Shown here: piece by piece, positions 44,968 through 63,338 of the stretch
Numbering within the stretch: position 1 is the first letter of the stretch
How the letters are laid out: every line of letters starts with the position of its first letter
Origin: Phycisphaerae bacterium
Lineage (GTDB): Bacteria > Planctomycetota > Phycisphaerae > Phycisphaerales > Phycisphaeraceae
Direction of reading: 5' to 3'
DNA: 64,000 nt
NCBI GenBank assembly: GCA_030425705.1
Contig: JAUHZU010000004.1
Location: forward strand, 62,001-126,000
Translations under genes and position numbers: made by a program
Notes under the pieces: model-generated
What the model was told of the DNA's origin: nothing
Database searches by the model: none
Seen by the model: the letters and a program-made list of their open reading frames with translations, nothing else

Positions 44968-45009
44968 GGGGGTCGGGTTTCGGGTGCCGGGTCAGGGGTC
45001 TCGGGGGGA
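44968..45009. repeat. Heptanucleotide array upstream of glyS
   Basis: Six consecutive 7-base units on the plus strand, GGGGGTC, GGGTTTC, GGGTGCC, GGGTCAG, GGGTCTC, GGGGGGA, starting 3 bases from the glyS start codon. The glyS mRNA would carry the C-rich strand. Confidence 0.7.
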
Positions 45010-46126: not shown

Positions 46127-46161
46127 GGGTTTCAGGTCTGGGGGCTCGGGGCGGGTGTCTA
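46127..46161. repeat. Degenerate heptanucleotide array upstream of the PadR promoter
   Basis: Seven-base units GGGTTTC, AGGTCTG, GGGGCTC, GGGGCGG, GTGTCTA on the plus strand; less regular than the arrays at 44968 and 60395. Confidence 0.5.
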
Positions 46162-59003: not shown

Positions 59004-59279
59004 CTATCTGTGCTGCCCATCAAGTGTGTCTGTAGTCAGCACGGAATCAAATAAACCTATGCCTTTTGCCCACGCCCCCCCGTGAATCAAATCCATCGCG
59101 TCAACCAACGAATCGTAACATTCCTCTTCTCCTGTTAGCTCGGCCTGAACCGATGCAAAGAGGTTGTACATTTCGCGTTGGCTCATGCCCTCATTCTTGA
59201 GTCGTTTTGCCAGTTCAAGGATCAAAACCTTGTGATCCGTCGAATGAATCGCTTGATGAAGGCGATCTCGCGGGCTCAT
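59004..59279 (-). CDS. Small AT-richer helical protein, coupled to manC
   Basis: 91 residues from ATG at 59279; family not recognised. All-helical and charged: RLHQAIHSTDHKVLILELAKRL, SQREMYNLFASVQAEL and CYDSLVDAMDLIHGG. The ATG overlaps the manC stop (ATGA), so translation is probably coupled. Four 60-base lines count to 48-52 % GC, against about 65 % in neighbours, suggesting acquisition. Similar small proteins are often immunity or stress-type partners, but nothing here proves that. Confidence 0.6.
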   Translation of the reverse strand: MSPRDRLHQAIHSTDHKVLILELAKRLKNEGMSQREMYNLFASVQAELTGEEECYDSLVDAMDLIHGGAWAKGIGLFDSVLTTDTLDGQHR

Positions 59280-60388
59280 AGATACCGCTCCCCCGCCCGC
59301 TTCCCCACCTCGCCGTGCAGTTGCTTGATCTGCTCCGCGTCTTCCTTGCGGCAGACGAGGGTGGCATGTTTGGTTTTGACGACGATCAGCCCCTCGACAC
59401 CGATCGTCGTGATGAGGTGGACAGGGTCGTCGCTGACGATCAAGTTGTCGCGGGAGTCCTGCAGCACGACGGGGCCGCCCGACGCGCGGTTGCCGTCGGC
59501 GTCCGGCTCGACCGTCTCGCCGAAGCTCGGCCAGCTGCCGATGTCCAGCCAGCTCAGCGGCATGGGCACGGCCACGACGTCGACCGCGTCGTCCCGGCTG
59601 GCGGGCTCCATCACGGCGTAGTCCACGCTGATCTTCTCGAGCGCGCCGAACGTGTCGGGCAGCTCGGCCCTGCAGGCGGGGGTGCCCCAGGTCCGGCCGA
59701 GCCGGTCGAGCGCTTCGAAGTTCTCCGGCGTGTAGCGGGCGATACAGTCCATCACGTTCGCCGCCTTCCACACGAACATGCCGCTGTTCCACAGGTACCT
59801 GGACGGGCCCGCGTCGAAGTAGCGCTGCGCGATGTCGGCCCGCGGCTTTTCCTTGAACTCGTCGACCAGCGCGCCCGGTGTGCCGTCGACGCCTTGACCG
59901 AGTTGCAGGTAGCCGTAGCCCGTCGCGGGGTGGGTCGGCGTGATGCCGAAGGTGACCAGCGTCGGCCGGTCGCGCTCCGCCAGCTCGAAGCCCTGCGCGA
60001 CGATGCGGCGCAGCTCGTCGACCGGCTCGATGAGGTGGTCGGCGGTGAAGACGGCGACGGCCGCCTCCGGGTCGCGGTGTTTCAGGACGCTGCACGCCAG
60101 CCCGACGGCGTTGAGCGTGTCGCGGCCCATCGGCTCGCCGATGAACCGGTCCTCGTCCAGGCCGGGCAGGTTGTCGAGCATCGCCCGGCGGGTGGACTCG
60201 CCGGCGCAGACGACGATGCGTTCGTTGGGGACGAGCCCCTCGAGCCGGTCCATCGCGACGCGGAGCAGCGAGCGTTTCGTGCCCGCGCCGTCGTCGAAGA
60301 GCGGGATGAGCTGCTTGGGCAGGGTCCGGGTGGACATCGGCCAGAGCCGGGTGCCGGAGCCGCCGGCGATGATGAGGGCGTATCGCAT
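59276..60388 (-). CDS. manC: Mannose-1-phosphate guanylyltransferase
   Basis: Makes GDP-mannose for polysaccharide and glycan synthesis; cytosolic. 370 residues from ATG at 60388 (MRYALIIAGGSGTRLWPMSTR); the longer frame upstream crosses the heptad array. The pyrophosphorylase signature GGSGTRLWP and FTADHLIEP, VDEFKEKPR and YLWNSGMFVW are all conserved. The C-terminal part (VSDDPVHLITTIGVEGLIVV) is typical of the short, isomerase-less form. It could feed the exopolysaccharide locus at 5164-18664. The start codon is 6 bases from a GGGTNNN array. Confidence 0.93.
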   Translation of the reverse strand: MRYALIIAGGSGTRLWPMSTRTLPKQLIPLFDDGAGTKRSLLRVAMDRLEGLVPNERIVVCAGESTRRAMLDNLPGLDEDRFIGEPMGRDTLNAVGLACSVLKHRDPEAAVAVFTADHLIEPVDELRRIVAQGFELAERDRPTLVTFGITPTHPATGYGYLQLGQGVDGTPGALVDEFKEKPRADIAQRYFDAGPSRYLWNSGMFVWKAANVMDCIARYTPENFEALDRLGRTWGTPACRAELPDTFGALEKISVDYAVMEPASRDDAVDVVAVPMPLSWLDIGSWPSFGETVEPDADGNRASGGPVVLQDSRDNLIVSDDPVHLITTIGVEGLIVVKTKHATLVCRKEDAEQIKQLHGEVGKRAGERYL

Positions 60389-60394
60389 GAGATC

Positions 60395-60443
60395 GGGTTT
60401 CGGGTCGGGGGTTTCGGGTCGGGGGTTTCGGGTCGGGGGTCGC
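60395..60443. repeat. Heptanucleotide array upstream of manC
   Basis: Seven units in register: GGGTTTC, GGGTCGG, three times alternating, then GGGTCGC (plus strand). The 14-base double unit is repeated perfectly three times. The G runs fit a four-tract quadruplex pattern. The manC mRNA leader would be the C-rich strand. Confidence 0.85.
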
Positions 60444-60506
60444 GTGCTGCGCAGCCGGCACCAGAGGATGCCATACACATCATCGCACACTCGTGATGTC
60501 CAAGCC

Positions 60507-60534
60507 AAAACCCGAGACCCGACACCCTAGACCC
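60507..60534. repeat. Inverted heptanucleotide array upstream of the ferritin-like gene
   Basis: AAAACCC, GAGACCC, GACACCC, TAGACCC: the reverse-complement pattern of the manC array, in the same intergenic region between divergent genes. Confidence 0.75.
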
Positions 60535-60612
60535 CACAAGCCGGCAGCGCTATCATTCTCTCCTGCCCAAGCACGGGCCCCTCACCCCGCACGACCCCAA
60601 GGAGACCCCGCC

Positions 60613-61080
60613 ATGAACGACGACCAACGCAAGACGATCCTGGGCCTGCTCGCGACGGCCTACAACGCCGAGCTGGAGACGGTCTGCAACTACCTGAGCC
60701 AGTCGGAGAACCTCGACGGCTTCCGAGCCAAGCACATCAAGGACGCCCTGGCCGCGGACATCACCGAGGAGCTGGGCCATGCAACGCTGCTGGCCAAGCG
60801 GATCAAGGTGCTCGGCGGCACGGTACCGGGCAGCCAGGCGCTGAAGATGACCCAGGACGCGATGCAGCCCAACGGCGACCCGCTGGACGTGGTCGCGGTG
60901 ATCCGGGGCGTCATCGCGGCCGAGCAGAGCGCGATCGACCACTACCAGAAGGTCATCGACGCGACCGGCGACGTCGACCCGGTCACCGAGGACCTGGCGA
61001 TCACGATCATGGGCGACGAGGAGGAGCACCGCCGGCTGTTCCAGGGCTTCCTCGCCGAGATCGAACGCGACCCGCGCTAG
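60613..61080 (+). CDS. Ferritin-like diiron protein (bacterioferritin/rubrerythrin-like)
   Basis: 155 residues from ATG at 60613 with AAGGAG at 60599-60604. Four-helix bundle with iron-ligand patterns: NAELETVCNYL (helix 1 Glu), EELGHATLLAKRI (ExxH), AAEQSAIDHYQKVI (Glu) and GDEEEHRRLFQGF (ExxH). The order and spacing fit ferritin-like/bacterioferritin proteins that bind or oxidise iron; the haem methionine is not obvious. Possible roles are iron storage or oxidative-stress protection. Single gene, divergent from manC, with a -10-like TATCAT at 60551-60556. Confidence 0.8.
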   Translation: MNDDQRKTILGLLATAYNAELETVCNYLSQSENLDGFRAKHIKDALAADITEELGHATLLAKRIKVLGGTVPGSQALKMTQDAMQPNGDPLDVVAVIRGVIAAEQSAIDHYQKVIDATGDVDPVTEDLAITIMGDEEEHRRLFQGFLAEIERDPR

Positions 61081-61156
61081 GGCCCGGCGGCGGCCGACCC
61101 GCACGGGTATGATCCGGCGTCGGTTCACCCACCCCACCCCGTTTCCGAGGTTTCCC

Positions 61157-61945
61157 ATGATCGGTTCCAACCCGGCGATGAACGAGAGCACGTTCGACCT
61201 GTCCTACGACGTCGCGCCCAAGGACGTGATGACGATGAACGGGACGCTGTCCAAGTCGTTGATGCTCGTGGGCATCCTCGGGCTGGCGGCGTCGTTCTCG
61301 TGGGCGATGACCACGCGGGGCGGCGTGTTCGACCCGGGCGTGGCCATGCCGTGGATCCTCGGCGGCGCGGTCGGGGGCCTGATCCTGGCGCTGGTGACGA
61401 TCTTCAAGCCCACCGCGTCGCCGTTCACCGCGCCGATCTACGCGTTGTTCGAGGGGCTGTTCCTGGGCGCGGTCTCGGCGATGTACGAGGCGGTCTATGG
61501 CGCCGGTGCGGCGACCAGCAGCGGCGCGGCGTCGCCGTTCTCCGGCATCGTCGTGCAGGCGGCGGGGCTGACGATCTGTGTGCTCGGGGTGATGCTCGTG
61601 CTGTATATGACCCGCATCATCCGGGTCACGGCGAAGCTGCGGGCGGGCATCATCGCCGCGACCGGCGCGGTCATGGTGTTCTACCTCATCAGCATCGGGC
61701 TGAGTCTGTTCGGCGTGTCCATGCCGTACCTGCACAGCCCCAGCCCGCTGGGCATCGGCATCTCGCTGGTGATCGTGGGCATCGCGGCGTTTAACCTGCT
61801 GCTGGACTTCGACCTGATCGAGCGGGGCATCCAACGGCAGGCACCCAAGTACATGGAGTGGTACGCGGGCTTCGCACTGCTGGTCACGCTGGTCTGGCTG
61901 TACCTGGAGATCCTCCGGCTGCTGGCGAAGCTGCGGTCGCGGTAG
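61157..61945 (+). CDS. BAX inhibitor-1/YccA family membrane protein
   Basis: 262 residues from ATG at 61157 (MIGSNPAMNESTFDLSYD), with GAGG nearby. Seven membrane segments. The family shows the N-terminal cytoplasmic stretch, a GGLILALVTIFKPTASPFTAPIYALFEGLFLGAVSAMYE block and a last helix pair with LLLDFDLIERGIQRQAPKYMEWY carrying the conserved acidic residues of BI-1/TMBIM proteins. YccA/BI-1 proteins are calcium- or FtsH-linked in other bacteria; the role here is unproven. The stop is followed at once by a GGGTCTA array. Confidence 0.93.
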   Translation: MIGSNPAMNESTFDLSYDVAPKDVMTMNGTLSKSLMLVGILGLAASFSWAMTTRGGVFDPGVAMPWILGGAVGGLILALVTIFKPTASPFTAPIYALFEGLFLGAVSAMYEAVYGAGAATSSGAASPFSGIVVQAAGLTICVLGVMLVLYMTRIIRVTAKLRAGIIAATGAVMVFYLISIGLSLFGVSMPYLHSPSPLGIGISLVIVGIAAFNLLLDFDLIERGIQRQAPKYMEWYAGFALLVTLVWLYLEILRLLAKLRSR

Positions 61946-61951
61946 CGGGTT

Positions 61952-61979
61952 GGGTCTAGGGTCTAGGGTCTAGGGTCTA
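61952..61979. repeat. GGGTCTA array after the BI-1 gene
   Basis: Four perfect tandem copies of GGGTCTA, beginning 7 bases after the stop. Faces the inverted array at 62081-62108 across the same gap. Confidence 0.9.
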
Positions 61980-62080
61980 GGCAGGATCATCCGAGACCGT
62001 CGGTGCTCGAACCGTTCGCGCGGAAGCTTTTGATTGCTGCAAACCCGATGGACCGTGCCGATCCCTTTCGCGTCCCGGCC

Positions 62081-62108
62081 TAGACCCCAGGCCCTAAACC
62101 CTAGACCC
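62081..62108. repeat. Inverted CCCTAGA/CCCTAAA array before the MFS gene
   Basis: TAGACCC, CAGGCCC, TAAACCC, TAGACCC, ending 6 bases before the ATG at 62115. Reverse complement of the array at 61952. Confidence 0.8.
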
Positions 62109-62114
62109 TGCTCC

Positions 62115-63338
62115 ATGCGTGCGATCCAGCGGCAGTTTGCGTTGAGCGGCGCGGCGATGGGGGCGCTGCTGCCCTACCTGCCGGTGTTCCTCTTAGACCG
62201 GCTGGGCGACCACACGCGCGTCGGGCTGGTGCTGGGGGTGATGGGGGTCGCGATCATCCTGACGCCGGTGGTGATCACCGCGCTGGCGGACACGCGGTTC
62301 CAGAGCCGGTCGCTGGTCGTGGCGAGCTTCATGCTCAGCGCCGCGGCGTGCGCGCTCATGCTCGTGGGCGACACGCTGGCGTCGCTGCTGGCGATCTACC
62401 TCCTGTTCTGCCTGGCGTTCTGGCCGCAGCCGCCGCTGCAGGACGGGCTGTTGTTCGCGGTCAACCGGCACCGTGAGCGGTCGGGCGAGGCGCAGACGCC
62501 CTACCACCGGGTGCGGGTGTACGGCACGCTGGGGTTCATCCTGCCCCTGATCCTGCTGTACTTCCTGCTCGACGGCGGGCTGGGGGTCGAGGCCGTGCTC
62601 TGGGTCGCGGCGGGGATCGCGGTCGTAGGCGCGGTCAACGCCTTGTCACTGCCGCACGTCCCGCTGGCCGAGGCCCGCACGGTCGACCCCGACGCCCCGC
62701 CGCTGCCGCACCCGACCCGCGCCGCCGCGGCCGTGCTCTTCCGCGGGCCGGCCGCGGTGTTCTGCGTCGCGATGTTCCTGGCCCACCTCGCCAACGCCGC
62801 GTACTACAGCTACTACCCGATCTACCTGGAAGACACCGTCGGCTTCGCGGAGAAGTGGATCGGGCCGATCAACATGGCCGGCGTCGTGCTCGAACTGCCG
62901 CTGATGCTCGCGGTGGGATTCCTCACCTACAAGCTCGGGATCAAGGGGCTGCTGCTCGCGGGGCTGGGGCTGATGCTCGCTCGGCTCGCGCTGCTCGGGC
63001 TCGTGCCAACCCAGGCCGTCGCCGTCAGCACACAACTGGTGCACGGCATGACGGTCGTCGCGATCTACGTCCTCCCGCCGATCTACCTCAACACGCTCGC
63101 GGTCGGCGACCACGGCGACCGGTTCCGCAACTCGATCCAGGGGCTCTACGCGATGGCGGTGTTCGGCCCGTCGCGGATCGTCGGCACGGTCGCCGCGGGG
63201 GCCGTGGCCGACGGCGCGTCGATGACCACGATGTTCAACCTCAGCGCCGCGCTCACCGCCGGGGCGATCGTGCTGCTCGCGGTGGGGTTCCGGTCGGGGC
63301 CGGCCTATTCCGCCTCGATGCGCCAGGCCAGCGCGTAG
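62115..63338 (+). CDS. MFS transporter (nucleoside/sugar-porter-like)
   Basis: 407 residues from ATG at 62115. Twelve membrane segments in two halves. The PHRVRVYGTLGF block before TM5 and the AYYSYYPIYL stretch in the second half resemble the nucleoside:H+ symporter / MFS_1-like family with lactose-permease-type fold (LacY-like). Substrate unknown. Its last 34 bases overlap the convergent protease gene. No Shine-Dalgarno: the ATG directly follows a heptad array. Confidence 0.8.
   Translation: MRAIQRQFALSGAAMGALLPYLPVFLLDRLGDHTRVGLVLGVMGVAIILTPVVITALADTRFQSRSLVVASFMLSAAACALMLVGDTLASLLAIYLLFCLAFWPQPPLQDGLLFAVNRHRERSGEAQTPYHRVRVYGTLGFILPLILLYFLLDGGLGVEAVLWVAAGIAVVGAVNALSLPHVPLAEARTVDPDAPPLPHPTRAAAAVLFRGPAAVFCVAMFLAHLANAAYYSYYPIYLEDTVGFAEKWIGPINMAGVVLELPLMLAVGFLTYKLGIKGLLLAGLGLMLARLALLGLVPTQAVAVSTQLVHGMTVVAIYVLPPIYLNTLAVGDHGDRFRNSIQGLYAMAVFGPSRIVGTVAAGAVADGASMTTMFNLSAALTAGAIVLLAVGFRSGPAYSASMRQASA

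Follow-up and report, generated by a model that had tools for sequence, protein, structure and literature searches.

The arrays of the window and their neighbouring genes

The window analysed here is a stretch of 64,000 nucleotides (C9:62001-126000) from the 4,105,382-base genome of a Phycisphaerae bacterium, which we call G000; coordinates given without a contig are positions in this window. Four genes are of concern: a manC-like mannose-1-phosphate guanylyltransferase gene on the − strand (59276..60388), followed on the + strand by a ferritin/Dps-like gene (60613..61080), a Bax inhibitor 1-like gene (BI-1, PF12811; 61157..61945) and an MFS transporter gene (62115..63338). The starts of manC at 60388 and of the MFS gene at 62115 are backed by tblastn with orthologues; gene starts and ends in the genome-wide counts below come from a simple home-made caller, and their start codons are approximate.

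Two pairs of inverted arrays of a G-rich 7-bp unit lie among these genes. In the manC-ferritin pair the left, G-rich arm (60395..60443, +) consists of 7 units of the type GGGTTTC/GGGTCGG, the perfect run of 7 units extending over 60395-60440, and ends 6 bp from the manC ATG. A spacer (60444..60506), situated between the arms and between the divergent start codons, separates it from the right arm (60507..60534, −; C-rich on the + strand), whose 4 units read GGGTCTA-GTC-CTC-TTT on the − strand (perfect run of 4 units at 60510-60534) and which is 78 bp from the ATG of the ferritin-like gene. In the BI-1/MFS pair the left arm (61952..61979, +), 6 bp past the BI-1 stop codon, has four perfect GGGTCTA units (perfect run at 61952-61976), and is followed by a loop (61980..62080) and by the right arm (62081..62108, −), which reads GGGTCTA-GGGTTTA-GGGCCTG-GGGTCTA on the − strand and ends 6 bp before the MFS ATG. 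A single array at 44968..45009 (+), with four perfect units at 44975-44999, adjoins a class II aminoacyl-tRNA synthetase-like gene of the − strand, the predicted start of which is about 10 bp away. Thus, of the six arrays quoted in the initial annotation, four are exact and the one at 62081-62108 is real, with one core mismatch (GGGC), and pairs with its left arm; the sixth (46127..46161, +) turned out to be a degenerate, G-rich and heptamer-like tract in which GGGT cores never occur three in a row, and its membership is weak. An Rfam search of the window gave no match. As to affiliation, the best matches of the BI-1 protein are mixed; L185 and L133 indicate Planctomycetota.

Abundance, unit and position of the arrays in the genome

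The scan of the complete genome that had been proposed from the window alone revealed a clear excess of these arrays. The pattern (GGGTNNN)n has 47 overlapping matches with four units and 98 with three, as compared to 0 and 1, respectively, for a reversed-pattern control; the matches collapse to approximately 50 arrays. In 535 kb sampled around the arrays, GGGT at period 7 accounts for 98 three-unit runs, unlike any other 4-mer at periods 5 to 14; only periods 6, 9 and 12 reach similar totals, which are codon-related and scattered over many cores. The letter bias of the unit was measured by ascertaining on GGG alone: T is found at position 4 in 79%, C or T at position 5 in 82%, T at position 6 in 69% and C at position 7 in 59% of the units, such that the unit is close to GGGTYTC, with GGG as its most conserved part. 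The last three letters, originally described as a variable NNN, are therefore a biased YT(C/G) set rather than a random one.

With our simple caller, 34 of 51 arrays fall between genes. For 30 of these 34 the gene behind the G-rich strand is the nearer one (median distance 9 bp, versus 116 bp for the gene ahead), and in 26 of 34 the array lies next to a start codon, which means that the coding strand is C-rich there. As a rule, the intergenic arrays run antisense before a start codon or sense after a stop codon, within 50 bp of it. Neighbouring arrays with at least 3 units per arm are convergent in 12 cases and divergent in none; if two units are considered sufficient, the count is 20 to 2. 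As a consequence, a G-rich arm, a loop and a C-rich arm follow one another in this order, whichever strand is read. These figures uphold the bias towards gene boundaries and towards one orientation that was suspected at the outset. Of 20 pairs classified by position, 9 are placed between co-directional genes, 4 between divergent genes and 7 within predicted genes; single arrays with no clear partner also occur. One 3-unit array (L070 5995-6870) is inside a predicted gene with a Pro/Glu-rich start region.

The initial annotation regarded the arrays as no known feature type, but G-rich heptamer simple sequence repeats had already been described. The GGGNATC repeats of Xanthomonas and the GGGGAYT repeats of Nostoc (Rehm et al. 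2015; PMC4692102) have a G-rich 7-bp unit with variable letters outside the G-tract, are intergenic, lie antisense before start codons and sense after stop codons, and most often comprise four units; 70 convergent inverted pairs were counted in Xcc and few in Nostoc, and neither a link to a gene nor a function was found (PMC4692102). The arrays of G000 share the tandem 7-bp G-tract unit, the overrepresentation, the strand rule, the convergent inverted pairs and the four-unit mode. They differ in that they belong to another phylum and have the unit GGGTYTC; co-variation of the arms, in-frame inserts with empty sites and a link to PF05635 genes, which holds in Xanthomonadaceae too, are added here. 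The TAACTGA heptamers of Beggiatoaceae (PMC4679880) also form arrays that precede start codons by a few bases, but their unit is fixed and not G-rich, and they are nearly always direct repeats with no inverted partner.

Turnover of the arms in related genomes

Arrays of four units are present in 18 of 41 relatives, with letters that are specific for each genome, for example GGGT(A/G/T)TC in G010 and GGGTACG/ACA in G019, against GGGTYTC in G000. In the gap between manC and the ferritin-like gene, an inverted pair adjoins both start codons in all five genomes of the genus, each time with different letters. The two arms match each other within their own genome with scores of 11-21, whereas the median cross-genome score is 8 (p = 0.002). 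A segment of the spacer (..AATCATCGGC..TCGCAAGCCA..) is kept in the congeners G002, G003 and G004, so that the arms frame older DNA. Head-to-head healing of a telomere-like kind fits the orientation of the arms, and was dropped as the main reading since the loops hold pre-existing, conserved DNA. In the congeners, the arms remain complementary as their letters change, the manC-ferritin pair of the window included, and this behaviour is new here.

The BI-1/MFS pair is not common to the congeners: the junction measures 40 bp in G003, different inverted repeats are found there in G002 and G004, and G001 has no BI-1 gene. Within G000, the triplets of the arms are no more alike inside a pair than between pairs, so that the letters are drawn from a genome-wide vocabulary; on this ground local homogenisation of paired arms within this genome was rejected, and co-variation is visible between species only.

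Several individual loci illustrate the range of forms. Inverted arrays of another unit (AGCAGAAA / TTTCTGCT) occupy the ferritin/BI-1 and BI-1/MFS junctions of G004 (L244 3354-3570 and 2500-2580). In G001 a perfect array of about 20 GGGTCTA units, instead of the usual four, is found at G001:C1:1465179-1465315 (L247). Arms with broken G-tracts and preserved complementarity occur in G015 and G018.

In-frame inserts in housekeeping genes

Several array pairs of G000 sit in frame inside housekeeping genes. At one site of dus, the dihydrouridine synthase gene, G000, G001 and G013 carry an in-frame insert and G002 and G003 are empty. The units of the insert differ among the three carriers (GGGTCTC, GCGGATG and CGGATTT types), and the arrays begin from a native 7-mer of the gene (TTCGGGC or CGGATTG): they look seeded by it, which points to growth in place. 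The finding that certain pairs were inserted in frame at sites left empty in congeners, as in dus, is likewise new here. In murD, an insert of 36 residues follows the P-loop segment and is missing in PDB homologues; at the same site relatives show either different short repeats or nothing, and the murD linker is a hotspot for short repeats. Octamer arrays (CGCCAAGA) are found in murD of G001, G003, G004 and G013 (L105, L104, L106 and L108) where G000 has its GGGT pair. Pairs resembling those of dus and murD are present in hemW and miaA.

A PF05635 gene between the arms

At G000:C9:6204-6678 an array pair encloses a gene of family PF05635 (four-helix bundle, 23S rRNA IVP), and the orthologous locus of G001 has the same arrangement. 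A second PF05635 reading frame lies in a loop near C9:307697; the two pairs of the window have none. Convergent GGGT arrays flank only 1 of 476 sampled genes, and that one is the PF05635 gene. Over the 41 genomes the number of PF05635 genes correlates with the number of arrays (rho = 0.66, with no correction for phylogeny); G002 has arrays and no PF05635 gene.

We have tested PF05635 loci for inverted flanks by comparing an arm-match score to the 99th percentile of controls from the same locus. An earlier score with a lax mismatch penalty placed 28 of 70 loci above control; being too permissive for GC-rich DNA, it gave way to a stricter one before further loci were scored. On the stricter scale, the inverted flanks of 51 of the 70 PF05635 loci from relatives surpass 99% of controls (median score 18 versus 8). 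A tandem period of 7 fits best at 42 of the loci in relatives and one of 8 at 8 of them, and the units vary by locus (GGGAGTC, TAGGGAG, AGTGATG, AAAAGTT, GAAAGTC, GGCCAAGT and others); GGTTTAA is a further unit with the same inverted-arm architecture, which is thus shared by AT-rich or non-GGG units (AAAAGTT, GAAAGTC, GGTTTAA). The association was observed across phyla: inverted flanks exceed 99% of controls at 19 of 25 loci in Bacteroidota, other planctomycetes and others, and at 25 of 29 loci in Xanthomonadaceae, the family of Lysobacter and Xanthomonas, where the units GGGACTC, GGGACCC and GGGAATC are of the GGGANTC, Rehm type; XCC0516 of Xanthomonas campestris (PDB 2gsc) is itself a PF05635 protein. 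The proportion is 9 of 10 for plasmid loci, mostly cyanobacterial. The STRR heptanucleotides of heterocystous cyanobacteria are tandem and intergenic (cited in PMC4692102 for Calothrix) and have so far been studied as simple repeats; here such arrays flank plasmid cyanobacterial PF05635 genes as inverted pairs.

The gene is usually set tightly into its surroundings: 38 of 47 times both neighbours are co-directional with it, and the gaps have medians of 76 and 88 nt. Across genera and families, PF05635 proteins group according to their genomic site (6 label changes versus 12.9 when shuffled), and at these sites the arms match within an element with a median score of 20, as compared to a cross-genome median of 9 (p = 2e-10). 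On this evidence the gene stays in place as the letters of its arms change and their complementarity remains. At the site upstream of wcaG, 3 genomes have PF05635 and arms, 1 (G010) has arms only and most are empty; the unit of the G010 arms is that of another PF05635 element in G010. A further new point is that the full-length form encloses an Avd-like, four-helix-bundle PF05635 gene. An Rfam search of the PF05635 elements gave no match, and in the freely accessible journal literature covered we found no description of the link between PF05635 and inverted arrays.

Some PF05635 loci deserve separate mention. The PF05635 frame of G000 at L291 (G000:C7:397890-398204) is broken, its counterparts in G013, G015 and G018 being intact. 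Inverted arms are lacking, unlike in most others, in one PF05635 subfamily (YEHTRAWKQALALV type; L292, L298, L300, L311, L313, L316, L318). In a type III-B CRISPR operon on a plasmid of Picosynechococcus sp. PCC 7003 (L339 1-2652), an arm-flanked PF05635 gene separates cas10 from the Cmr3 gene; this arrangement may explain earlier reports of PF05635 in cas loci (PMC3936711).

An alternative explanation is that the arrays are G-quadruplex repeats grown by 7-nt slippage and kept where they are harmless or mildly regulatory, at gene edges and with the C-rich side in 5' UTRs, PF05635 being irrelevant. A potential for G-quadruplex formation is plausible by analogy: the motif G3-N4 x4 is present in the arrays, and the similar units of Xanthomonas, which also prefer four copies and obey the same position rule, form G-quadruplexes in vitro (PMC4692102). 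The conservation of GGG above the rest of the unit and the native 7-mers at the start of the dus arrays agree with this explanation as well. However, it predicts neither the pairing of inverted arms nor their co-variation across species, neither AT-rich and non-GGG units with the same architecture nor the flanks of PF05635 genes, and we regard it as unlikely.

Folding and spacers of the pairs

The suggestion that paired arms could form long stems is borne out by the BI-1/MFS pair, which folds as RNA into a single hairpin with z = −5.2, none of 200 shuffles being as good. The z-score of the RNA fold is −3.2 for the PF05635 element, and the manC-ferritin pair folds more weakly, as DNA (z = −2.5). 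Terminal inverted repeats predicted to form a long stem, as in intervening sequences (IVS), are therefore present, though not in every copy. In the 23S rRNA IVS of Coxiella burnetii an S23p gene lies in the loop and RNase III cuts the 28-bp terminal stem; tandem heptamers are found at the 5' end, and the cut falls at the first of these (PMC4990558). The elements described here resemble it where, as at C9:6204-6678 and near C9:307697, a PF05635-type reading frame lies in a loop between terminal inverted repeats. They differ in their sites, which are protein-gene boundaries and coding loops instead of 23S rRNA, in having tandem 7/8-mers as arms on both sides, and in that most pairs carry no reading frame.

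The stability of the BI-1/MFS stem, together with the 9 of 20 pairs between co-directional genes, could suggest intrinsic terminators or insulators, with the arm hairpin ending or separating transcripts. No T-run is visible after that stem, however, and pairs between divergent genes or within predicted genes are misfits for a promoter or terminator, which the initial annotation had listed among the possible roles, as a general function; we consider this explanation highly improbable.

The spacers of the pairs with no reading frame, that of BI-1/MFS included, resemble neither each other, nor PF05635 genes, nor the rest of the sampled genome. This argues against a simple copy-and-paste element, which we have rejected on these grounds, and against the mobile micro-element suspected initially, in the copy-and-paste sense, as does the manC-ferritin pair, which stays put in five congeners with differing letters. 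REP/BIME, MITE and Rickettsia palindromic elements are also short, palindromic and intergenic, but they are copies of one sequence, whereas here the spacers are unique (no sequence is shared between the terminal repeats of the G000 pairs that lack a reading frame) and the letters of the arms turn over. Rickettsia palindromic elements also sit in frame inside genes. A transposase-moved repeat family of the MITE or REP/RAYT kind is hardly credible: dispersal, boundary placement, inverted ends, empty sites in congeners and the presence of Y1 transposases would agree with it, but spacers are not shared, unit letters turn over in place, no target-site duplication was seen, the correlation between Y1_Tnp and array counts is weak (rho = 0.35, 41 genomes) and the Y1-rich genomes G028, G032 and G040 have no arrays. 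The same weak and unspecific association makes a RAYT/Y1 transposase an unlikely driver.

A probable hairpin module of the intervening-sequence type

From the observed arms, orientation rule and co-variation, the in-frame inserts with their empty sites, and the PF05635 association across phyla with its count correlation, we conclude that the arrays are probably the facing arms, two to a module, of IVS-type hairpins, with a PF05635 gene in the full form. On either strand such a module would consist of a tandem array of a G-rich 7-mer, a loop and then the complementary C-rich array, and the property conserved would be that the arms complement each other, whatever their letters. In its full form the module would have a PF05635 (23S rRNA IVP / TIGR02436, Avd-like) gene in the loop, fitted tightly between co-directional genes, and would represent an IVS-like element outside rRNA. 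The pairs of the window, which have no such gene, would draw on the 7-mer vocabulary peculiar to the genome and enclose loops of other kinds, be they a promoter region, filler or peptide loops in frame with a gene. A transcript running through both arms would fold into the stem, which RNase III would cut as it does in the 23S IVS of Coxiella; arranged as tandem 7-mers, the arms would stay able to pair through slippage; and the PF05635 protein might bind the arms and help to make or keep them.

A role in RNA processing only does not fit all pairs: where the flanking genes diverge, a normal transcript cannot yield a single RNA stem, and cutting the pairs inside genes would be harmful. Furthermore, given that the spacers of pairs with no reading frame are unlike PF05635 genes, we make no claim that these pairs descend from gene-bearing ones, that they are deletion products or that whole modules copy themselves. 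More broadly, and tentatively, tandem-heptamer inverted arms and a PF05635 gene could constitute one widespread class of IVS-type hairpins in the protein operons of many phyla, of which the Xanthomonas G-rich heptamers, the cyanobacterial heptamer arrays and the GGGTNNN arrays of planctomycetes would be the arms and the relatives with no reading frame; the arms would be selected, or copied from a template, for complementarity only, and the Avd-like PF05635 protein would act on them.

These results can be viewed in the light of what is known of PF05635 (TIGR02436), a common and little-understood family, homologous to the DGR accessory protein Avd, which has puzzled annotators by its occurrence in rRNA, CRISPR and other operons. 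With a consistent frame of inverted arrays the family gains a testable physical substrate, and repeats that have been studied separately in Xanthomonas, in cyanobacteria and in rRNA genes are joined into one question. Arms that switch letters together and yet remain complementary would be a natural record of selection on a hairpin, or of copying across it.
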